8,995 nucleotides of DNA, from assembly GCA_030429345.1 (NCBI GenBank), contig JAUIFJ010000062.1, positions 1 through 8,995 on the forward strand. Reading direction: 5' to 3'. Below are positions 1 through 8,995 of the stretch, in pieces; within the stretch, counting starts at the first letter, position 1, and each line of letters starts with the position of its first letter. A program made the position numbers and the translations under genes. The notes below the pieces were generated by a model. It searched no databases. It was given only the letters and a program-made list of their open reading frames with translations, and was not told the origin of the DNA. This stretch comes from a bacterium (GTDB lineage Bacteria > CAIWAD01).

Positions 1-357
1 GTCACGAGCTACGAAATCGTGTGGGATGGGGACGTGGACACCGAGCGCTATCAGCGGACGGTGCGGCCCGGTCAGCAGCTGGTGATCTACGCCCAGGCGG
101 TCAGCGAATTCGGTGTGGCCAGCCCCTGGTCCACGGGCCTGGTCGTCGTGACCGACGAACTGCTTTCGGGGGGCAAGACCCTGGTCGACTTGTACACCGA
201 GCGCCTGAGCCTGAAGAAGGCGCGCATCGAGGTCGAGCGCGACCAGCTGGCCATCGGCTACCAGGATCAGGTGCTGGAGATGAAGCGCCAGATCGGCCTG
301 TTGGCAACGAAGAGCGAGCTGGATGCCGTCATCACGACCGTGGAAGCCGGGGCCTAG
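1..357 (+). CDS. C-terminal part of a phage tail protein with a fibronectin-like domain and coiled coil (5' end outside window)
   Basis: The frame is open from base 1 to TAG at 355-357, so only the last 118 residues are present. The first ~50 residues (ending GVASPWSTGLVVV) have the alternating beta pattern and the 'G-x-x-Y-x-x-x-A-V-S-x-x-G-x-x-S-x-W' ending typical of a fibronectin type III domain. The remaining ~65 residues are charged and heptad-like (LYTERLSLKKARIEVERDQL), suggesting a trimeric coiled coil. FN3 domains followed by a helical tail are common at the C-terminus of tail-tip/host-specificity (gpJ-like) proteins and tail fibres. It lies 32 bases upstream of a putative receptor-processing protein and is followed by the lysis genes, which supports a late tail role. 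The exact family cannot be fixed without the missing N-terminus. Confidence 0.7.
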   Translation, partial: VTSYEIVWDGDVDTERYQRTVRPGQQLVIYAQAVSEFGVASPWSTGLVVVTDELLSGGKTLVDLYTERLSLKKARIEVERDQLAIGYQDQVLEMKRQIGLLATKSELDAVITTVEAGA

Positions 358-389
358 AAAAGTCCAATCACAGCAAGGGGGATCGACGA

Positions 390-2909
390 GTGAAGCACAA
401 ACTGAAGACCGTGATACTGCTGCTGCTGGCCCTCACGGGCCTGGCCAGTGCGGCCGGCCCGCAGGGAATCCAGGGCTGGACCCGGACGAAGATCGCGGCC
501 AATGATCCGATGAATCTGCTCTTCATCGGCGACAGCTGGCCTCACGGCGGCAGCTACCCCGGCCGGGATATGCACCCCGCGCTGAACAAGCCCTACAACC
601 TGGCGGCCTTGAAAGCGGACTCGACGGCCTGCCAGGGAAACGAGTACGCCAACCACGTGGGCTGGCGCCTTCAGACCAATCGTGTGGCCGTCCTGGCCGT
701 GGGATCCATGCCGTTCAAATTGGACAATGACCCGGCGCGCACCGAGACCGATTCCACGATCTACGGGCTGTGCCAGGCCGAGTACGCCGAGCTCTTCGAT
801 CCCGATGTGGTCATCCTACCCGGGGGCGGGGGCTTCAACGACGTCTTCGGCGGCGCGTCCTACGCGGACATTCGAGAGCGCGCCATCCTGGTGGGGAAGA
901 AGGCGATCGAGACCTACAGTGGCGCCCGCTGGTTCGTCTGGGTCGCGCCCAGGATGTGCGGCATCTACCACTACGAGCGCCTCTCGGGCGGGACGAATGC
1001 CGAGCGGCAGGTTCTGGCGGCCGCCGAATACGATCTGGTGTTCAAGTTCGCGGACTTCGTGACCGACACCCTGAAGGCCGAGCTTGCCACGCGGGGAGTG
1101 GACACTTCCAAGCTTGTGATCTGGGATTCCCGCCCGTACTCCACGATTGCGGACGAGGATACGGCTGGCGCCTACGACACCTTCTTCGACTCGGCTTCTG
1201 ATGCTCAGTATGCGGTCGTACGCCACATGCGCTTCTCGCCCACGCCCTGGTACCAGGCGGACAACGTCCACTTGAACGACCTGGGCAACAAGTCCTACGC
1301 GGACTCGTTGGCCAAGCATGTCTTCGGAATCACCCTGGACAACAACTATGTGAAGGGGGCTGGGCGCTCCATTTACATGGATGTGCACACCGGACACAAC
1401 TTCAACAACCGCACGCGCTGCAACAGTCCGGACTACCCGCTGGCCACGTTGCAGGCCGCGGTCAACCAGGCGCACCCGGGGGATGTGATCCATGTGATTG
1501 GCGGCGGCAACCAGGCGACGACGGCCTGGGATTCCAACACCGGCGGCTGGGTCAGTGCGCTCGACTACGAGATCCGAACAATGGATCCGGGCCTGACCAT
1601 CCGGATGGAGAACGGGTCCTACTTCGAGGGCATCTTCAACGACGACGAGCTGCTGGACATTCCCTCGGGCTTGACCGAAGTGGGCAAGGGATTTCTTGAC
1701 CCCTACGCCTGCACAGCCGGCACGGATGCCGACAGTCTCTCCCACGATCTGGCGGCCACGATCACGGGACAGAACCCGCTCATCGATCTTGACCTGACCA
1801 TCGAAGGCGGAGGCATTTCCGGATACAACTACCCGCTGTACTACTTCAACTACTCGGGCATCACGCTCAAGGACCTGGCCGTCGCCGGCGGGGCATCCGG
1901 ATCTTCCATCTACCCCAACAACGAGGGGCAGGTGATGGAGCTGAACCTGGATGGCTGCACCGTCTACTACGACTCCTCGACGGTCAACACGACGGGCCAG
2001 ATCATCCTGAACATGAACGTCGACGTCACGGACACCGAGTGCTACGACGGCGTGTGGCGAAACAGCCAGTTCATTGGTCGGGCCAGTCAAAACAGCAGTG
2101 CTGCCATCACGAAGGCCGCGTGTGGCATCGATTTCATCGGCTGCACCTGGACGGATCCGGAGTGCTTCAGCCGCGCCTTCATCAACCTGGATCCCAACAA
2201 CGTAACCTACACGGACTATCCCGTGACACGCATCATCGGCTGCAGGTTCGAGGGCTATCGCAGCGGGACCCTGATCACCGGTGTCTATTGGGCCCACGCC
2301 CTCGACGACAGTGTGATCGTGGTCAACACAGACTTCCAGCTGGGCAGCACCAGCTCCTCGAACGCCATTCAGTATCCGATCGGTCCCGAGGCCTCGGGCG
2401 TGACGATCGTGGTGGGCAGCGCCTTCCAGAAGGTGGACTACCCGAGTGCCACCCGATCGGACCTGACGCCCTCTTCGGCGGAATCCCCGGACTACGTGGC
2501 GGGCAACACTCTGGTCACGCCTACCACCCTGCTGGCAGAAGGCAGCGATGCCAACATGTTCGGTGGCGTGCTCAGCTGGCCGGGTGGAAGCCTGGAAGAC
2601 TATGCGGTCGAGCACGGGGCTCGCCATGCCAGTGTGGGACCCGCCGTGTATACAGCCGAACCCCAGGTGCGAATCGGAAGTCAGAAGGAGGGCCTGCCGG
2701 CCTATGCGCAGGTAACGCTGCATCGGCTGGCCGACCTGGTGGACACGGGGCTGCTGCCTGCCGTCGATTCCCTGGACGTCAGCACCTGGTACCGGGTGCA
2801 GGCGCCGGCGACTGAGGCGGACAAGGCGCAGTGGCAGTACCTGCTTTCCGAGTACGAGAACTTCCCGACCGAGGTGAAGGAGAAGCTGAAGCTGGTCGTG
2901 GAGGACTAG
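390..2909 (+). CDS. SGNH/GDSL hydrolase fused to a right-handed beta-helix; tail-spike-like or secreted esterase, with signal peptide
   Basis: 839 residues starting at GTG 390, preceded by AAGGGGGA at 375-382 with 7-base spacing. The frame stays open to base 21 but that extension overlaps the previous gene and has no ribosome site. Residues 1-21 are a classic Sec signal (KHKLK, then a Leu-rich core, then ASA). A short GPQGIQG run follows at 23-29. SGNH hydrolase motifs are visible: GDSW with nucleophile Ser49, GFND with Asn150, and DNVHLND with Asp291 and His294. From about residue 328 to 690 there are beta-helix features: an entry segment (SPDYPLATLQAAVNQAHPGD) and repeated strands such as GCTVYY and GCRFEGY. 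The C-terminal ~90 residues are more helical. SGNH-plus-beta-helix proteins in phages often deacetylate or de-esterify capsule or O-antigen as tail spikes. The signal peptide is unusual for a virion protein and allows the alternative of an exported lysogeny factor. Substrate unknown. Confidence 0.8.
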   Translation: MKHKLKTVILLLLALTGLASAAGPQGIQGWTRTKIAANDPMNLLFIGDSWPHGGSYPGRDMHPALNKPYNLAALKADSTACQGNEYANHVGWRLQTNRVAVLAVGSMPFKLDNDPARTETDSTIYGLCQAEYAELFDPDVVILPGGGGFNDVFGGASYADIRERAILVGKKAIETYSGARWFVWVAPRMCGIYHYERLSGGTNAERQVLAAAEYDLVFKFADFVTDTLKAELATRGVDTSKLVIWDSRPYSTIADEDTAGAYDTFFDSASDAQYAVVRHMRFSPTPWYQADNVHLNDLGNKSYADSLAKHVFGITLDNNYVKGAGRSIYMDVHTGHNFNNRTRCNSPDYPLATLQAAVNQAHPGDVIHVIGGGNQATTAWDSNTGGWVSALDYEIRTMDPGLTIRMENGSYFEGIFNDDELLDIPSGLTEVGKGFLDPYACTAGTDADSLSHDLAATITGQNPLIDLDLTIEGGGISGYNYPLYYFNYSGITLKDLAVAGGASGSSIYPNNEGQVMELNLDGCTVYYDSSTVNTTGQIILNMNVDVTDTECYDGVWRNSQFIGRASQNSSAAITKAACGIDFIGCTWTDPECFSRAFINLDPNNVTYTDYPVTRIIGCRFEGYRSGTLITGVYWAHALDDSVIVVNTDFQLGSTSSSNAIQYPIGPEASGVTIVVGSAFQKVDYPSATRSDLTPSSAESPDYVAGNTLVTPTTLLAEGSDANMFGGVLSWPGGSLEDYAVEHGARHASVGPAVYTAEPQVRIGSQKEGLPAYAQVTLHRLADLVDTGLLPAVDSLDVSTWYRVQAPATEADKAQWQYLLSEYENFPTEVKEKLKLVVED

Positions 2910-2911
2910 CC

Positions 2912-3358
2912 GTGAGCCAGGAACAGTGGGATGGCGTGACCGAGCGCCGCGGAGAAGGACGGGGAATCAGCTTGCTGGAAGTGGTGTCCGACATCCGGGC
3001 CCTGACGCTCGAGGTGCGTCACCTGGCGCAGGTGCTGCAGAAGAGCCAGGAAGCGGCGGACCAGCAGCGTGTGGAAGACCGGAAGGCCAACCGTGACGAA
3101 CACGAAGCGCTGCAGGCCGAAGTGCGGAAGTTGAAGGAAGCGGTTTACAATCCGAAGGAAGGCCTCTTTGCCGACAACAGCCGGCAGCAGGCGGAGATCC
3201 TGAGTCTATCCGCGCGCATGGATCGGGTGGAGAAGGCCAAGGAAAAGGACTCGGATTCCAGGACGCGCGTGATACTGGGTATTCTTGGCACGCTGGTCAC
3301 AGCACTGCTGCTAGGTGGGGCCGGGTACGCCATCAAGGGAATCATTGCAGGGGGATAG
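2912..3358 (+). CDS. Coiled-coil protein with C-terminal membrane helix, XhlA-like lysis-region protein
   Basis: 148 residues from GTG 2912, two bases after the previous stop, with GGAGG at 2900-2904 inside the end of the upstream gene (7-base spacing), so translation is probably coupled. Residues ~20-110 are a long charged helix with heptads (DIRALTLEVRHLAQVLQKSQ; LQAEVRKLKEAVYNPKEGL; LSARMDRVEKAKEK). Residues ~117-141 (VILGILGTLVTALLLGGAGYAI) form one membrane segment near the C-terminus. Phage lysis regions often carry small proteins of this plan next to the holin (XhlA-like or accessory holin proteins). This one is longer than typical XhlA, so the family label is tentative. Its place directly before the holin-like gene suggests a role in lysis or membrane anchoring. 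Confidence 0.7.
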   Translation: MSQEQWDGVTERRGEGRGISLLEVVSDIRALTLEVRHLAQVLQKSQEAADQQRVEDRKANRDEHEALQAEVRKLKEAVYNPKEGLFADNSRQQAEILSLSARMDRVEKAKEKDSDSRTRVILGILGTLVTALLLGGAGYAIKGIIAGG

Positions 3359-3359
3359 C

Positions 3360-3782
3360 ATGTCTGCAACCGCAATCGTGACTGGCGTAGCCGGTCTGTT
3401 GAAACAGGTGCTGCCGCGGGTCCTGACCGACAAGGACAAGGCGGCGGAGATTGAAGAGCGGCTGGAGCTGGAACTGCACCGTGCCGCGCAGGATGAGCGC
3501 AGCGAGTTCTACTCTTTCATCCTAGACTTCGAGGGCCGGGCGGCCGAGATGCCGCGCTCTGTCCAGATCATCCGGGCACTAATCCGGCCGCTGATCACGG
3601 TGCTCGTGGTCTTCGGCTACCTGTGGGGCTTTCTGCACCCGCAGGACGGCTTCACCCCCGACCAGATGGCCATGCTGCACACCTGGGGCCTTCTGATCCT
3701 CGGCTTCTGGTTCGGGGAGCGGGCGCTGAAGAACCTGGGGGCCAACTTCAAGTTCCTGGCTCCCAAGGGCCAGCAGGACTGA
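3360..3782 (+). CDS. Holin-like protein, 3TM gene-transfer-agent/phage holin family
   Basis: 140 residues from ATG 3360, one base after the upstream stop. AGGGGG at 3349-3354 is the ribosome site. The N-terminal ~20 residues are hydrophobic/amphipathic (IVTGVAGLLKQVLPRVL), followed by a charged helix (EIEERLELELHRAAQDERSE). Then come two membrane segments, about residues 74-92 (LIRPLITVLVVFGYLWGF) and 104-120, ending in GFWFGERALKN. The arginine-proline before the first segment and the 'GFWFGER..K' after the second match my memory of the GTA_holin_3TM family. The expected role is permeabilising the inner membrane to release the endolysin. The amidase two genes downstream supports this. A predicted topology or family search would confirm it. 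Confidence 0.75.
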   Translation: MSATAIVTGVAGLLKQVLPRVLTDKDKAAEIEERLELELHRAAQDERSEFYSFILDFEGRAAEMPRSVQIIRALIRPLITVLVVFGYLWGFLHPQDGFTPDQMAMLHTWGLLILGFWFGERALKNLGANFKFLAPKGQQD

Positions 3783-3783
3783 G

Positions 3784-3978
3784 ATGGACCAGCCCATGTG
3801 TTACGGCCACTTCAAGCCCTCGCCCATGGTACCGGCGGCACCGCGGATGATTCCCGGCCCTGGCGGCATTCGCCTGGCGGAGTGGATTCGCTGTCCCCTG
3901 TGTGGCCATGCCCGGCCAACAGGCAGGGTCCGCCGGCAGGACCGGGGCTACGAAGTCCGCCGGCCTATCCAGGGCTAG
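3784..3978 (+). CDS. Small CPxCG-containing phage protein of unknown function
   Basis: 64 residues from ATG 3784, one base after the holin stop and 12 bases before the amidase start, so it fills the gap in the operon with no spare space. It has Cys6 near the start and a CPLCGH motif (Cys38, Cys41) followed by a basic tail (RVRRQDRGYEVRRPIQG). A single CPxCG pair plus basic residues is common in very small phage proteins and may bind zinc, possibly as a dimer. There is no signal peptide, lipobox or membrane segment, so it is not a spanin. An overlapping frame (3798-4019) is also open, but this frame fits the operon spacing better. The ribosome site is weak (CAGGA), consistent with coupling to the holin gene. 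Confidence 0.55.
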   Translation: MDQPMCYGHFKPSPMVPAAPRMIPGPGGIRLAEWIRCPLCGHARPTGRVRRQDRGYEVRRPIQG

Positions 3979-3990
3979 AAAGGGGAGACC

Positions 3991-4482
3991 ATGCGCGAAC
4001 GACCGCTGGACCGGATTGATGAGCTGATCATCCACTGTTCGGACTCACTCTATGGGGACGTGGAGACCATCGACGGTTGGCACCAGGAGCGTTTCGGTGA
4101 GCCCTGCGGCTACCACTTCGTCATTTGTAACACGTACCCCACGCAGGCGGACTATGCGCGCCGGTCACCCTGCCCGGAGTTCGATGGGATGATCCAGCAC
4201 GGCCGGCCGCTCGACCTCATGGGCACCCATGCCGGCCCTTTCACAGATGCGGAGGGTGAGAGGCACCCAGGCCACAACTGGCGATCCGTCGGAATCTGCT
4301 TGATCGGCAAGACCGTTTTCTCGGCGGCGCAGTTGCAGTCCCTGCAGAATGTGGTTGCGGATGTTCGGCAGAAGCTGGGCCGCACGGTCCCGATCGTGTG
4401 CCACCACCAGGTGAATCCGGGGAAGACCTGCCCCAACCTGTCCTGGCCGTTCCTGCACCAGCTGCTGGACCAGGGTCTGTAG
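3991..4482 (+). CDS. Endolysin: N-acetylmuramoyl-L-alanine amidase, T7-lysozyme type (Amidase_2)
   Basis: 163 residues from ATG 3991, with AAAGGGGAG just upstream. The protein cleaves the bond between N-acetylmuramic acid and the stem peptide of peptidoglycan. Motifs in order: IIHCSDS (zinc ligand His15), GYHFVI (Tyr41, matching the catalytic tyrosine region of T7 lysozyme), THAG, NWRSVGICLIG, and CHHQVNPGKTCPN, giving zinc ligands His138 and Cys147 and the catalytic-type Lys145. The length is close to T7 lysozyme (about 150 residues), with no added wall-binding domain. There is no signal peptide, so export would depend on the holin encoded upstream. It is the last gene of the lysis operon. 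Assignment to the family is firm; the exact peptidoglycan type cleaved is not visible. Confidence 0.93.
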   Translation: MRERPLDRIDELIIHCSDSLYGDVETIDGWHQERFGEPCGYHFVICNTYPTQADYARRSPCPEFDGMIQHGRPLDLMGTHAGPFTDAEGERHPGHNWRSVGICLIGKTVFSAAQLQSLQNVVADVRQKLGRTVPIVCHHQVNPGKTCPNLSWPFLHQLLDQGL

Positions 4483-4550: not shown

Positions 4551-4689
4551 GGTTTCAGGGAACAGAGTACCCTCGCGCAGGAACACTCACAAGTGAAATC
4601 GGAACGAATTGGATTCCGTGCTGAATTAGCCTACCGTTCAACCTGCTAGCCCAGCCGGGCCGGCAGTCCCACCATAGAGCTGTGTGTTG

Positions 4690-4722
4690 AAGGGGTCATC
4701 GTAGCGGTACGATGGCCCTTTC
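4690..4722 (+). terminator. Intrinsic terminator of the late/lysis operon
   Basis: The left arm 4690-4703 (AAGGGGTCATCGTA) pairs with the right arm 4708-4720 (TACGATGGCCCTT) around a GCGG tetraloop, with a single bulge/mismatch. It is followed by a short T-rich run (TTTCTGT). This is the best rho-independent terminator in the window. It sits about 210 bases after the amidase and before the attachment region, insulating int from late transcription. Confidence 0.75.
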
Positions 4723-4769
4723 TGTATCAAAATTCCACAAGCGAATTGGATAGGCATTGGATGGCACTC

Positions 4770-4835: not shown

Positions 4836-4876
4836 TTGTCCCGCCAGGACTCGAACCTAGAACGTCTGGACCAAAA
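4836..4876 (-). other. tRNA-Gln(TTG)-like 3' fragment; probable attachment-site core (attP/att)
   Basis: Read on the minus strand, the segment gives a tRNA 3' half. It has an anticodon loop TTTTGGT (4876-4870), a 3' anticodon stem CCAGA, a 4-base variable region, and a T-arm CTAGG-TTCGAGT-CCTGG (stem 4856-4860 with 4844-4848). Acceptor strand CGGGACA (4843-4837) and discriminator A (4836) follow. The anticodon in this register is TTG (Gln). Position 72 is A, which fits the U1-A72 pair typical of tRNA-Gln. No 5' half (D-arm, 5' anticodon strand TCTGG) exists on the right side, so it is not a functional tRNA. CCA is not encoded. Tyrosine integrases often use tRNA 3' ends as attB, and the identity block starting at the anticodon loop fits a crossover there. 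It lies 157 bases before int. Confidence 0.75.
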
Positions 4877-4890
4877 ACATAAAAGTGTTC

Positions 4891-4930
4891 GATTCCCCCG
4901 GATTCCAGCCGATTCCAGTCGATTGACAAA
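4891..4930 (+). repeat. Four 10-bp-phased GATT repeats (cluster 1, likely integrase arm sites)
   Basis: Units start at exactly 4891, 4901, 4911 and 4921: GATTCCCCCG, GATTCCAGCC, GATTCCAGTC, GATTGACAAA. The 10-bp period puts every copy on the same face of the helix. The cluster lies between the tRNA-derived core and int, where arm-type integrase sites or excisionase sites are usual. The last unit contains a perfect TTGACA, so protein bound here could also control int transcription. Confidence 0.6.
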
Positions 4931-5023
4931 AGCATAAAAAACAGGCATTGAATCCGGCTTGTTTCGGAATTCCGATTCCCCTAGATTCCCCTCGATTGAC
5001 GAAAAGTATGGGACCGTTATGGG
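4923..5023 (+). promoter_or_regulatory. Candidate int promoter(s) overlapping the phased repeats
   Basis: TTGACA at 4923-4928 is a perfect -35 consensus, but no good -10 lies 16-18 bases on. TTGACG at 4996-5001 with TATGGG at 5018-5023 (16-base spacer) is a weak promoter that would start very close to the int ATG. Both -35 hexamers are the last units of the repeat clusters, suggesting autoregulation by integrase. Evidence is weak. Confidence 0.25.
4974..5003 (+). repeat. Three 10-bp-phased GATT repeats (cluster 2)
   Basis: Units start at 4974, 4984 and 4994: GATTCCCCTA, GATTCCCCTC, GATTGACGAA. The order is the same as in cluster 1, with GATTCC units ending in GATTGAC then (A/G)AAA(A)G(C/T)AT. 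It is offset 83 bp from the matching units of cluster 1 and ends 29 bases before the int start codon. Confidence 0.6.
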
Positions 5024-5032
5024 ACGGGGGCA

Positions 5033-6205
5033 ATGAGCCAGACAGTGAGATTCCGATTCACGCAGAAGCGATTGGCCGAGTTATCGACTGAAAAGCCACG
5101 TGCCTGGGTCTATGATGACCAGGTTCAGGCGTTGGCCTGCATGGTCACCCAATCGGGTTCCAAGTCCTTCTATGTGTCGAAGCTGCATGCGGGTCGAAAG
5201 CACCAGGTTCGAATTGGTGCTGTGGCAGAGGTTCCGATTCCGAAGGCGCGACAGCTGGCCCTGTCGATCCTGAAGGACCTGCTGGACGGAAAGGACCCAC
5301 GGGGCGCACGGGGGACGAGGCAGCAGCGACTGGAGCTTCGGCAGGTCTTTGAACAGTACTGTGAGTTCGTGGCTGCTCATCGGAGGCCGAGCACCCTTGT
5401 TTCCTATCAATGGATGTGGGAGAAGCATGTCAGGCAGTGGGCGGGAGCACGCCCCTTGTCATCCATTCGCCGGCGTGATGTTGGGAACCTTCATGTCCGA
5501 CTAGGTAAGGAGCATGGTCACTACCTGGCAAACCGGGTTCTTGGTCTGCTGCGCGCCGCGATCAACAAGGCGATCAGGGAGAATGAGTTGGATATGCCGA
5601 ACCCTGCGGCCGGCATTTACATGTTCAAGGAGCGATCGCGGACCCGCCGGCTGAAACCGGATGAGCTTCCCCAGTTCTTCCAGGCTGTGCTGGCTGAGCC
5701 CAGTGACGGGATCCGGGACTATGTCCTGCTATCCCTCTACACAGGGGCACGAAAGGCCAATGTGCTGGCCATGCGGTGGGATCAGCTGGACATGCAGGCC
5801 GGCGTCTGGACAATCCCACACGGGGAGGCCAAGTCGGGGGTGGAGCTGCAGGTGGTGCTGCCGCAAGCTGCGCAGGAGATCCTGCACCAGCGGCACGCGA
5901 GTCAATCAGGCCCCTGGGTCTTCCCAGGTAAGGCACCTTCCGGCCATTTGGAGCAGCCAGAGAGCGGCTGGCGCAGGATCCTCAAGCGCGCTGGGCTTGA
6001 AAATCTGCGGATCCATGACCTGCGCCGCAGCCTGGCTAGCTACCAGCTGGACACAGGCGCACCGCTGGAGGTGATCCAGAAAACCCTTGGACACGGGAAC
6101 CGGGCGGCTACAGAGGTCTATGCCCGGATGGCCCTGGATCCCGTGCGGCAGAGTCTTGAGAAGGCGGTGCAGGCGATCCAGCAGCATGCGGCCGTGAAGG
6201 AGTGA
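5033..6205 (+). CDS. int: Tyrosine-type site-specific integrase, P4-like
   Basis: 390 residues from ATG 5033; GGGGG at 5026-5030 is the only ribosome-site-like run, and an in-frame stop at 4997 excludes longer forms. Residues ~1-95 resemble the arm-DNA-binding domain of P4-type integrases (YDDQVQALACMVTQSGSKSF, then the ending 'ARQLALSILKDLLDGKDP'). Residues ~105-195 are the SAM-like core-binding domain. Residues ~205-385 are the catalytic domain with the full set of active residues: Arg240 (YTGARKANVL), Lys267 (GEAKSG), His328 and Arg331 (IHDLRRS), His354 (LGHGN) and nucleophile Tyr363 (EVYARM). The length is usual for the family. It would catalyse integration and excision between a tRNA-gene attB and the attachment region immediately upstream. 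It is transcribed rightward, away from attP, and converges with the leftward cargo genes. Confidence 0.95.
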   Translation: MSQTVRFRFTQKRLAELSTEKPRAWVYDDQVQALACMVTQSGSKSFYVSKLHAGRKHQVRIGAVAEVPIPKARQLALSILKDLLDGKDPRGARGTRQQRLELRQVFEQYCEFVAAHRRPSTLVSYQWMWEKHVRQWAGARPLSSIRRRDVGNLHVRLGKEHGHYLANRVLGLLRAAINKAIRENELDMPNPAAGIYMFKERSRTRRLKPDELPQFFQAVLAEPSDGIRDYVLLSLYTGARKANVLAMRWDQLDMQAGVWTIPHGEAKSGVELQVVLPQAAQEILHQRHASQSGPWVFPGKAPSGHLEQPESGWRRILKRAGLENLRIHDLRRSLASYQLDTGAPLEVIQKTLGHGNRAATEVYARMALDPVRQSLEKAVQAIQQHAAVKE

Positions 6206-6215
6206 TAGCATGCAA

Positions 6216-6241
6216 AAGAACTCACTTGCGCTTCAGTTCTT
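6216..6241 (-). terminator. Hairpin between convergent int and DUF2513-like gene, probable terminator
   Basis: AAGAACT (6216-6222) and AGTTCTT (6235-6241) form a 7-bp stem with a 12-base loop. Read leftward, the stem ends in AGTTCTTTTG, giving a short T-run, so it suits the leftward genes best. It could also stop int transcripts. A second weaker hairpin, AGCACG (6253-6258) with CGTGCT (6268-6273), lies between it and the 6285 stop. Confidence 0.45.
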
Positions 6242-6284
6242 CGACAGTTTGTAGCACGGCTTGGGATCGTGCTCCAGCCGAACT

Positions 6285-6626
6285 CTACAGATTAAGCAAA
6301 TGCTTCTTTGCCATTTCAACCATCAGCGGAATGGCTAAACCTCCGCCAACCTTGCCGGCCATGGTTTTTATCTTATTGTTAAATCCTTCTGAGTTCAACG
6401 CATTCAGAAGCAGATGCCCCTCTTCGTAGAGAGGGCACTTATCATTGATACTAACTACATAGCTGCCGTCTTCAAGTGGAATCGCTTGGCCACGAAGAGC
6501 TTTGGATTCAACCAGCATTTGTTTGTGATACATGATTTCAGCAGGAGTCCAGGAAGTGAGATCCTGCTCTTTGTCTTCCTCATATCCCTTCAGGATCGCA
6601 AGTAGAAGCTCCGGGTAGCGTTTCAT
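6285..6626 (-). CDS. DUF2513-like small protein
   Basis: 113 residues read leftward. The chosen start is the ATG at 6626 (MKRYPELLLAILKGYEED) because AGAGGA lies about 6 bases upstream; the frame is open 11 codons further (to 6659), but without a ribosome site. The layout matches DUF2513 proteins as I know them: an N-terminal MKR..ELL..IL helix, a segment like 'EIMYHKQMLVESKAL', a short beta wing (GSYVVSINDKCPL), the 'EEGHLLLNAL' helix, and a C-terminal GG-containing helix (KVGGGLAIPLMVEMAKKHL). DUF2513 proteins look like winged-helix DNA-binding folds and occur often in phages and mobile elements. Their function is not established. It is the last gene of the leftward set, 71 bases after the zinc-ribbon gene. 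Confidence 0.7.
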   Translation of the reverse strand: MKRYPELLLAILKGYEEDKEQDLTSWTPAEIMYHKQMLVESKALRGQAIPLEDGSYVVSINDKCPLYEEGHLLLNALNSEGFNNKIKTMAGKVGGGLAIPLMVEMAKKHLLNL

Positions 6627-6662
6627 AATTGTTCCTCTAATCAGATAGACGGATGCCAAGTT

Positions 6663-6681
6663 GGGGTCTGATTCAGGCCCC
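6663..6681 (-). other. Strong hairpin between two leftward genes
   Basis: GGGGTCTG (6663-6670) pairs with CAGGCCCC (6674-6681), one G-T wobble, loop ATT. It lies 17 bases past the stop of the zinc-ribbon gene (leftward) and ~40 bases before the DUF2513-like start. There is no T-tract, so it may be a partial terminator, a processing site or an RNA-stability element. Confidence 0.4.
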
Positions 6682-6697
6682 GCTGTTCAAATCGTTT

Positions 6698-7213
6698 CTA
6701 CTTGTACTCTTCGACCACGACAAGCCAGTCACCATTTGCAGCCGTTGCGTTCAGATAGTAGTTCCCGCGCTTTCCATGGATCGTTGTTTCCCCTTCACCA
6801 GCTCCATCTTGCATGAACTCGGGAAATCCACCGGTCTCCATGATGTCAGTTCCGTCGGGCACGAGGTAGACGCCGAGCATTGACATCGACCCGCCGGTCA
6901 GGCTGTATCTCATCCTGGTCTTGGCCCCTGTAAGTTGAAACGTTGGACCCTTTTTACTCCCGCTGCCAGATAGCCTACTGACTTCAATCCAAGACTTCTG
7001 AACCTGCTTTGTCTCTTTGGATACGGCGGTTGTAGCCGTATTCGTTTCAGGCTGATTGATGAGCCCAATGATGAATAGGAAGACAAAGAATCCTCCTACC
7101 CCCAACAGCACTTTCTTCATCAACCCGGTCTTCAGCTTCGTTCCACAATGCGGGCACTTTGCAGCTTTCGTACTTACTTCCTTCCCGCATTCCTTACAGG
7201 TTGTCATGGACAT
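6698..7213 (-). CDS. Zinc-ribbon protein with one membrane helix and extracytoplasmic beta-rich domain
   Basis: 171 residues read leftward from ATG 7213, chosen because AGGAGAG lies 8 bases upstream; ATG 7207 is too far from it, and a longer frame to 7288 has no better site. Residues 6-23 form a zinc ribbon (CKECGKEVSTKAAKCPHCG; Cys6, Cys9, Cys20, Cys23). Residues ~33-52 (KKVLLGVGGFFVFLFIIGLI) are a membrane helix. A linker rich in T, K and Q follows. The C-terminal ~100 residues look beta-rich (FQLTGAKTRMRYSLTGGSMS, GVYLVPDG, GNYYLNATAANGDWLVVVEE) and probably lie outside the cytoplasm. The plan, cytoplasmic ribbon, membrane helix and outer sensor or ligand domain, is widespread among uncharacterised bacterial proteins. 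It is divergent from the small membrane protein at 7301. No function can be assigned from sequence alone. Confidence 0.75.
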   Translation of the reverse strand: MSMTTCKECGKEVSTKAAKCPHCGTKLKTGLMKKVLLGVGGFFVFLFIIGLINQPETNTATTAVSKETKQVQKSWIEVSRLSGSGSKKGPTFQLTGAKTRMRYSLTGGSMSMLGVYLVPDGTDIMETGGFPEFMQDGAGEGETTIHGKRGNYYLNATAANGDWLVVVEEYK

Positions 7214-7300
7214 GATGATTTCTCTCCTGTACGATTGATTTTTCAGTTCGCGCGATGAAGATTGTGTGTGATACAGAGGCAATTGCAATGGAGGCCATTC

Positions 7301-7543
7301 ATGCAGGACTTCGAACGTGGCGAGAAAGGTCTGCTGTTCTTGACCCTGTCGTATATCATGTACGGTGCCAATTGGCTTCCTGATGGAATCTGGCGCATCA
7401 TGCTGTTCATCCTGCTAGGTGTCTTCGGCGTGGGCAATCTGGTGCTCTCCTACCGCGAATGGTCTGCTGATCGTTTTGCCAAGCAGTCTGGTACAAGCGA
7501 GGAAGAATCTGCTGGCGATGCTACTGAATCAACCAGTAGCTGA
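7301..7543 (+). CDS. Small two-helix membrane protein, hypothetical
   Basis: 80 residues from ATG 7301, chosen because GGAGG at 7290-7294 has a 6-base spacing; an upstream ATG in the same frame at 7262 has no such site. Two hydrophobic segments are seen, about residues 10-27 (LLFLTLSYIMYGANWLP) and 29-50 (IWRIMLFILLGVFGVGNLVL), followed by a charged, Ser/Glu-rich C-terminal tail (SGTSEEESAGDATESTSS). It is the only rightward gene within the accessory block and starts 87 bases from the divergent zinc-ribbon gene. I do not recognise the family. Size and topology would suit a membrane-acting accessory or exclusion protein, but that is a guess. Confidence 0.6.
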   Translation: MQDFERGEKGLLFLTLSYIMYGANWLPDGIWRIMLFILLGVFGVGNLVLSYREWSADRFAKQSGTSEEESAGDATESTSS

Positions 7544-7568
7544 ATCATCCGATTCCCAGTGCGGAATA

Positions 7569-7587
7569 GACCAAAATGTGGTTGGTC
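7569..7587. terminator. Weak hairpin between convergent genes
   Basis: GACCAA (7569-7574) and TTGGTC (7582-7587) form a 6-bp stem with a 7-base loop in the 83-base gap between the rightward gene ending at 7543 and the leftward gene ending at 7627. No T-tract is seen on either side, so a terminator role is only positional. Confidence 0.25.
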
Positions 7588-7626
7588 CAAATCATAACCC
7601 AACTCCTACGATTATTTGCCATCACA

Positions 7627-8649
7627 CTATGGCCTTGCTAATTCTCCAAGTACAATCAGAAAAGTCATGCCAATCAAGAGGAAGAGCAGAACGGATATCA
7701 CCTTCTTAACCTTTGGCGGCACTGCTTCTATTCCGCAATGCGGACAATACTTCAACCCAGCATTGTGTATACGATTGCACTCTCTGCAAGTGATTTCAAG
7801 TCTGCGTTTCTTTTTGGTTCTGGCCATCCCTGTTCGTGGGGTGAGTGTTTTAGTCGAGATCATTGGCGCGGCATTATCCTTTGCAAGACTTTGACCGATG
7901 AATTCTGCTATCGCCTGATTCATGTCAGCAAAATCAATCGAAACCGCTTCTCCGCCTTGATCGATTGCATAGACTATTTCTGCTTCATAGAAGCAGTAAC
8001 ACCAGCCATGCCGACCTGAAGGAGACTTACAATCGCAATCAGGCGGAGGAACTTTGGGTCTAGCGATCTCATCGGCAAGTGTGACATTCATTTCATCGAG
8101 ATGTCTACATTCTTTACATGCTCGGGGACTTTTAACATCGATTTTGATGTCTTGGCATCCAGCAGATAGATATTGCTGCAGTGTCTCGTATCTGTACCTT
8201 TTCAGGTATGGTAGAAAATCAGCACCAAAGTAATCAGCAAGGATGGACGCCTTATAAAGTCTATCAATTCGGGCAGATTGGGACTGCAAACTAGTGAGCT
8301 GTTCTTCAATAATTGATAACAGTACTTCGGAATCATGTGGCTCACGACATTTTAAGTCTGATAAATCTTGAAACTTGTGGTCATACTCTGTGCGCGAAGA
8401 TTGTATTTGTACCAACCACCGCTCAATTTTACGGCTTCTATGATACTCACTCCACTGCCGCTCTACCGCTTCAGCCTGTTCGGTCGTTAGCATTTGTTTG
8501 TCGGGCTCTCCCGGTGCAGTTTTCAAATGGATCGTGTTTTTGCAGGATGGGCACTTTCTTTTTTTACGAGGGTGCGGCCGTATCTCGAATCTGCAATAAG
8601 GGCAGTTTCCGCTCTCAGGAAAGGATTGCTTTTGCTGCGTTGGATCCAC
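7627..8649 (-). CDS. Large multi-zinc-ribbon, tail-anchored membrane protein of unknown function
   Basis: 340 residues read leftward from GTG 8649, chosen because GGGGGA lies 4 bases upstream and the sequence turns protein-like there. The frame is open to 8919, but the extra 90 residues look random. Residues 16-36 are a ribbon (CPYCRFEIRPHPRKKRKCPS plus Cys36), followed at about 49-60 by a 'MLTTEQAEAVERQW' helix. A helical middle follows. Residues ~165-221 hold a second cysteine group: Cys178/Cys181 (ACKECRHL), a PPPDCDC segment with Cys205/Cys207, and GWCYCFY with Cys217/Cys219. The latter spacing recalls the C-x-x-C...PP...C...CxC pattern of SPP1 gp7-type minor-head domains. Residues 288-305 are a third ribbon (CRECNRIHNAGLKYCPHC). 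Residues ~316-335 are a membrane helix at the very C-terminus. The combination suggests a cytoplasmic metal-binding protein anchored in the inner membrane. Function unknown. Confidence 0.7.
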   Translation of the reverse strand: MDPTQQKQSFPESGNCPYCRFEIRPHPRKKRKCPSCKNTIHLKTAPGEPDKQMLTTEQAEAVERQWSEYHRSRKIERWLVQIQSSRTEYDHKFQDLSDLKCREPHDSEVLLSIIEEQLTSLQSQSARIDRLYKASILADYFGADFLPYLKRYRYETLQQYLSAGCQDIKIDVKSPRACKECRHLDEMNVTLADEIARPKVPPPDCDCKSPSGRHGWCYCFYEAEIVYAIDQGGEAVSIDFADMNQAIAEFIGQSLAKDNAAPMISTKTLTPRTGMARTKKKRRLEITCRECNRIHNAGLKYCPHCGIEAVPPKVKKVISVLLFLLIGMTFLIVLGELARP

Positions 8650-8995
8650 TGTTTCCCCCAAGCCAGTTCTGACACACTCGCCGCCATAACATCTCGGCAG
8701 ATCGGCCCCGTCCCGCATTCGGAATAATCTAACGCAGGGCAGACTAAAAACAAGACCCATTCTTCTTGGTAGTATTTTCTTCACCGCCATCACGTTTACA
8801 GGATGCATTTCACCCCATTCTCCCCTACATTCAGCGCCCCAAACCCTAGTCGGGGCCCCGCAGCCCTGGCCACAGCGGTCGGCTTTGCTCCCGGTTCCCC
8901 GCCCTGCCAAAGCTGACAATCAAAGCCAATGAAGTTTGTTCTTGCGTATGCGGGAACATATTTACACACTGAGCGTGTGTCCTAGCGAACATCCG
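8650..8995. other. No confident gene; upstream region with short palindromes
   Basis: No frame here shows convincing protein character. CGGGGCCCCG (8851-8860) is a perfect 10-bp palindrome in a G+C-rich patch. Further right the composition turns A+T-rich, with TGTTC (8937-8941) facing GAACA (8954-8958), and ACACAC (8964-8969) facing GTGTGT (8975-8980). These could be operators for a regulator beyond the window, but none matches a box I can name. A leftward reading from ATG 8803 (MHPVNVMAVKKILPRRMG) would extend the 7627-8649 gene and cannot be fully excluded. Confidence 0.3.
8726..8753 (-). promoter_or_regulatory. Possible promoter for the leftward multi-ribbon gene
   Basis: Read leftward, TTGTTT (8753-8748) and TAGATT (8731-8726) are separated by 16 bases and would give a leader of about 70 bases before GTG 8649. 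Match to consensus is only partial (3 of 6 and 4 of 6). Confidence 0.2.

Follow-up and report, generated by a model that had tools for sequence, protein, structure and literature searches.

The window analysed here, the whole of contig C82 (8995 bp), raises the question of what half a tRNA represents when it lies between the lysis genes of a phage and an integrase. Its source genome (G000) is a 4.24-Mb draft in 92 contigs, and three genomes of the same family (G001, G002, and G003) provided material for comparison.

The half-tRNA and its neighborhood

The features of the window are given below, the letters A and B denoting the phages to which we assign them.

1..4482, plus strand: late region, phage B, with a long protein (390-2909) and small lysis-cassette-like ORFs
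3991..4482, plus strand: N-acetylmuramoyl-L-alanine amidase (endolysin), phage B (Amidase_2, PF01510, phrog_822)
4689..4722, plus strand: terminator-like hairpin (inverted repeat I1, 87% complementary, with a T-rich stretch after it)
4745..4764, minus strand: putative lysis-side arm pair of phage B, ATCCAAT twice, 11 bp apart (pair scan)
4836, minus strand: discriminator position (A), the base beside the core
4837..4876, minus strand: attachment core, 40 bp, equal to the 3′ part of tRNA-Gln(TTG)
4891-4930 and 4974-5003, plus strand: two clusters of 10-bp-phased GATTCC/GATTGAC repeats in the int-side arm
5006..5026, minus strand: putative int-side arm pair of phage A, GTCCCAT twice, 11 bp apart (pair scan)
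5033..6205, plus strand: tyrosine integrase, phage A, 390 aa, with arm-binding, core-binding and catalytic domains (Pfam/PHROG)
6206..8995, mostly minus strand: region of phage A past int, with ORFs for small zinc-ribbon and unknown proteins (Pfam/PHROG)

On the minus strand, positions 4837-4876 read TTTTGGTCCAGACGTTCTAGGTTCGAGTCCTGGCGGGACA, which comprises the anticodon loop, the 3′ anticodon stem, the variable loop, the T arm and the 3′ acceptor strand. ARAGORN and Rfam scans both returned no complete tRNA in the window, an expected result, because only half a tRNA is present there. All 40 bases are identical to C25:667-706, which lies inside a tRNA-Gln(TTG) found intact by ARAGORN at C25:665-736, and a further identical copy occurs as a fragment at C63:24004-24043. 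The core match in the same assembly has a BLAST E of 1e-13, and an exact match of 40 bases is not due to chance. The original observation of a minus-strand tRNA 3′ half lacking its 5′ half was therefore confirmed by ARAGORN, Rfam and the 40/40 identity to tRNA-Gln, and its reading as an attachment site with tRNA-Gln(UUG) as target was correct, the core being the 3′ part of the C25 gene. A look for the same bases at the other phage end had been proposed, and the 40 bases of the core were found at a lysis end (C25) and at an integrase end (C63). The match foreseen for 4836-4876 held at C25 for 4837-4876 and failed at 4836, where the intact tRNA-Gln has G (C25:666) and the window A. The base past the core is likewise A at C63:24044, and the tRNA-Gln of G001 has G as at C25; the last bases of the tRNA-Gln in use may be owed to phage A.

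The setting of the half-tRNA, between lysis genes closed by a terminator and a complete tyrosine integrase, was also as described, as seen from the Amidase_2 match, the hairpin and the integrase domains. The endolysin is the last late gene ahead of the junction and the hairpin is placed past the late operon of phage B, while ends homologous to window 1..4482 are found at C45:2601-3337 (93%), C51:1-1940 (88-93%), and C25:3-717 (86%). In the integrase, Arm-DNA-bind_3 and Phage_integrase scored above cut-off and Phage_int_M below it. The phased repeats between the core and int are direct repeats in the window, with a 10-bp autocorrelation across three homologous arms (window, C63, and C1), and from their sequence are possibly Xis sites or accessory integrase sites. 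At the far end, window 8802-8995 is 98% identical to C63:10383-10576, within prophage B; the assembly is fragmented at prophages because contig breaks sit in segments of this kind, common to the prophages of the genome.

Two other contigs with the same core

Contig C25 carries a phage endolysin (C25:3-308) within about 360 bp of the intact tRNA, running off the contig end. The gene order tRNA-Leu, two genes, tRNA-Gln of this contig is retained in the three family genomes, therefore C25 carries the ancestral chromosomal gene. With an intact tRNA adjoined by a phage lysis end, C25 is by its sequence an attL. In C63, past an integrase with 73% whole-protein identity to that of the window, come the core and a stretch in which no phage genes were recognised and which extends to a FAD-dependent oxidoreductase gene, while primase, helicases and a sigma-like regulator lie on the other side of the integrase; the integrase end with non-phage DNA beyond the core is, on the same grounds, an attR. 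The flank of C63 has no synteny support: the neighbor expected from G001 and G002, namely the gene next after tRNA-Gln, is located on C17 in G000 and not on C63, so that it gives no link between C25 and C63.

Other observations concern the same contig. A 175-bp segment is duplicated at 94% identity (C63:24148-24322 and C63:25539-25713, L006), and its copies, which include the 3′ end of the FAD-dependent oxidoreductase gene, flank a 1.2-kb stretch; the position of this duplication just past the attR core suggests further rearrangement at the site. On the integrase side of prophage B, a MmeI-like restriction-modification enzyme (L005:11526-14342, C63) is apparent cargo.

A second instance of the layout is present in G000 at tRNA-Met(CAT), where C51 holds the intact tRNA with a lysis end, and C1 a 43-bp tRNA-Met fragment with an integrase (58% whole-protein identity to that of the window).

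Putative arm-type repeats and the pairing of prophage ends

In this family a single pair of 7-8-mers, set 11 bp apart, lies just upstream of each integrase gene, and the prophage repeats it at its tRNA-proximal end, where it begins 44-72 bp beyond the tRNA or the core. Over 12 arms, the spacing of 11 reached a summed score of 114 vs. 64-85 at the other spacings from 6 to 29. The pair was identical in type on both arms in all four control prophages:

G000 tRNA-Met, C51/C1: assigned by shared tRNA core
G001 tRNA-Asn, L069/L030: assigned by shared tRNA core
G001 tRNA-Arg, L083/L033: assigned by shared tRNA core
G001 tRNA-Met, contig C100, L071/L034: ends at C100:42,040 and about C100:115,300

The last of these, whose core is less well conserved, was assigned by shared contig and orientation; both its ends lie on one contig, and its 21-bp pair is identical at the two. 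The pair scan gave no arm pair past the core at C63, C1, L031, L033, or L034, and by this sequence evidence an arm pair beyond the core is a mark of phage DNA. From their position, spacing and co-variation, we infer that these pairs serve as arm-type sites of the integrase. A further integrase of G001 (L035, C7:6822-7970) has the GGTCGCCG arm pair, but its upstream 450 bp contain nothing recognisable as a tRNA core.

The two arms of the window disagree, with GTCCCAT twice on the int side vs. ATCCAAT twice on the lysis side, and each pair recurs elsewhere, the former at the lysis end of C25 and the latter at the int end of C63. Naming the int-side arm P and the lysis-side arm P′, and counting matching bases over 25-base arm windows, the pairing expected of a tandem gave 18 (C25 P′ with window P) and 19 (window P′ with C63 P), while that expected of a single prophage plus a circle gave 14 for both C25 P′ with C63 P and window P′ with window P. 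The C25 pair matches the int arm of C1 equally well (18), but the integrase there belongs with the tRNA-Met core. Only two of seven positions distinguish GTCCCAT from ATCCAAT, and the argument from the arms therefore hangs on a small number of bases that differ consistently among eight copies; moreover, the lysis-side pair of the window is the weakest of the 12 arms, its score being reached by 41 of 1000 shuffles. From the pairing of the window arms with C25 and C63 follows the order tRNA-Gln, A, core, B, core, C63 flank.

A probable tandem of two prophages at one tRNA gene

Taken together, the sequences point to two different, related phages, A and B, that most likely integrated head-to-tail at one tRNA-Gln(TTG). 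On the tRNA sense strand the order would begin with the tRNA 5′ half, the core and the lysis end of A (C25), proceed through the integrase end of A, the core and the lysis end of B (window), and finish with the integrase end of B, the core and the non-phage flank (C63). Each phage's own integrase would have recombined the phage attP core with the tRNA 3′ end, and the tRNA stays whole after integration because the phage contributes a 3′ half of its own. The later phage would then have recombined with an att core of the resident prophage, producing the internal core of the window. Three cores, identical over 40 bp, were found, one tRNA-proximal (C25), one internal (window) and one distal (C63), and the internal core joins unlike arm types, each of which matches one outer end. 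Core 4837..4876 is thus most likely the junction site, attR of phage A and attL of phage B. We also infer from sequence that C25, the window and C63 follow one another in this way on a single chromosome, in a draft that could mix strains and in which no contig spans a whole prophage or both junctions. Among the options originally offered for the locus, arm matching supports a tandem junction, or an int-bearing element beside another prophage, and the unlike arms disfavor a circular or excised phage genome.

The two integrases are mosaic relatives. At the protein level the window and C63 enzymes are 92% identical in the catalytic domain, 55% in the arm-binding and 53% in the core-binding domain, and at the DNA level their similarity rises from about 50-70% to about 90% near window 5660 and is lost after about 6150. 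Differing arm-binding domains beside near-equal catalytic domains are as would be expected if different arm sites were read at one core. In its arm-binding domain the window enzyme more closely resembles the C1 integrase (62%), which shares the GTCCCAT pair and targets tRNA-Met; the pattern fits arm-binding domains that follow arm sites, a view put forward for Cluster K mycobacteriophages (PMC3203893), but the cases are few. A peptide-pattern search for relatives of the integrase returned none in viral contigs or genome contigs, a phage collection gave only distant integrases (24-29% identity among the best matches listed), and an endolysin search in related genomes returned own-genome copies only.

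Each integrase might excise only its own prophage, arm-binding domains and arm sites having diverged or been swapped, a suggestion that we advance tentatively and hold rather doubtful. If true, arm-site divergence would act as an insulation system allowing stacking at one attB. The two integrases constitute a natural pair, with catalytic domain and target shared and the arm-binding part different, on which the role of arm specificity in keeping stacked prophages independent could be tested.

Alternative explanations

The gene order of the window, with late and lysis genes, att and int in succession, also fits the attP of an excised or packaged circular phage, present beside a single integrated prophage that extends from the C25 lysis end to the C63 integrase. 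Under the tandem model the assembly would contain as many integrases and lysis ends, and these counts are not decisive: two prophages in tandem yield the same set of pieces as a single prophage accompanied by a circle. However, both the window phage and the integrated one would need mismatched arms, whereas arms match in four of four controls, and counterparts of the window arms lie beside the intact tRNA on C25 and at the integrase end of C63. The check for circularity proposed at the outset was negative, the contig ends having no overlap of at least 15 bp, though the contig covers just part of a phage, and this result by itself carries little weight. We consider an attP in the window unlikely.

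The core could instead be the attR of phage A followed by a decayed lysis-end remnant, a CIME-like relic with no complete second prophage. Such relics seem to be present in the family, as in contig C82 of G001 (L057), where two tRNA-Lys 3′ copies lie about 300 bp apart (about 14,880-15,190) with an integrase adjoining and a lysis-side arm pair between them, probably what remains of a tandem element of like origin after its deletion. The window core, however, is bordered by over 4 kb of intact late genes, and C63 offers an integrase end with matching arms, plus primase, helicases and other phage genes; we consider a remnant very unlikely. Coincidental resemblance to a tRNA, or decay of a host tRNA with no tie to integration, found no support and has a negligible probability, given the 40/40 identity to the host tRNA, the adjoining integrase and the recurrence of the layout in this genome at tRNA-Met (C51/C1); the three identical core copies exclude it. 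The tandem of A and B at tRNA-Gln is therefore the reading that we retain.

Comparison with known systems

Arm-type repeats here pair the ends of fragmented prophages where no contig spans them, a simple test that could be used on other drafts. The closest parallel is found in Mycobacterium abscessus T36, in which prophages prophiT36-2a and 2b lie in tandem at tRNA-Thr (PMC9934374). As here, two different phages share one tRNA gene in the order attL(a), attR(a)/attL(b), attR(b), with three cores of about 40 bp, and the pairing of ends excluded other histories; that pairing was based on repressor reading frames and PCR, while ours relies on arm-type repeats read from the sequence of a fragmented draft (PMC9934374). 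Tandem accretion of ICEs, IMEs and CIMEs at the 3′ ends of genes, those for tRNAs among them, is also well described, and there too a second element integrates site-specifically at the att site of the resident, although those are conjugative or mobilizable elements and the present ones phages with lysis genes (PMC5704250).

Regarding the arms, the attP of Cluster K mycobacteriophages (e.g., CrimD) similarly combines a tyrosine integrase with putative arm-site pairs flanking the core (PMC3203893). Their putative arm sites are 11 bp long and occur in pairs, with a consensus that varies between close phages along with N-terminal residues of the integrase; in Cluster K1 one pair is inverted with respect to that across the core (PMC3203893), whereas the present pairs are in direct orientation. 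Tandem prophages at one tRNA are known, yet hard to resolve in draft genomes; the arrangement is thus of a known kind, and the present case is a fresh example of it.
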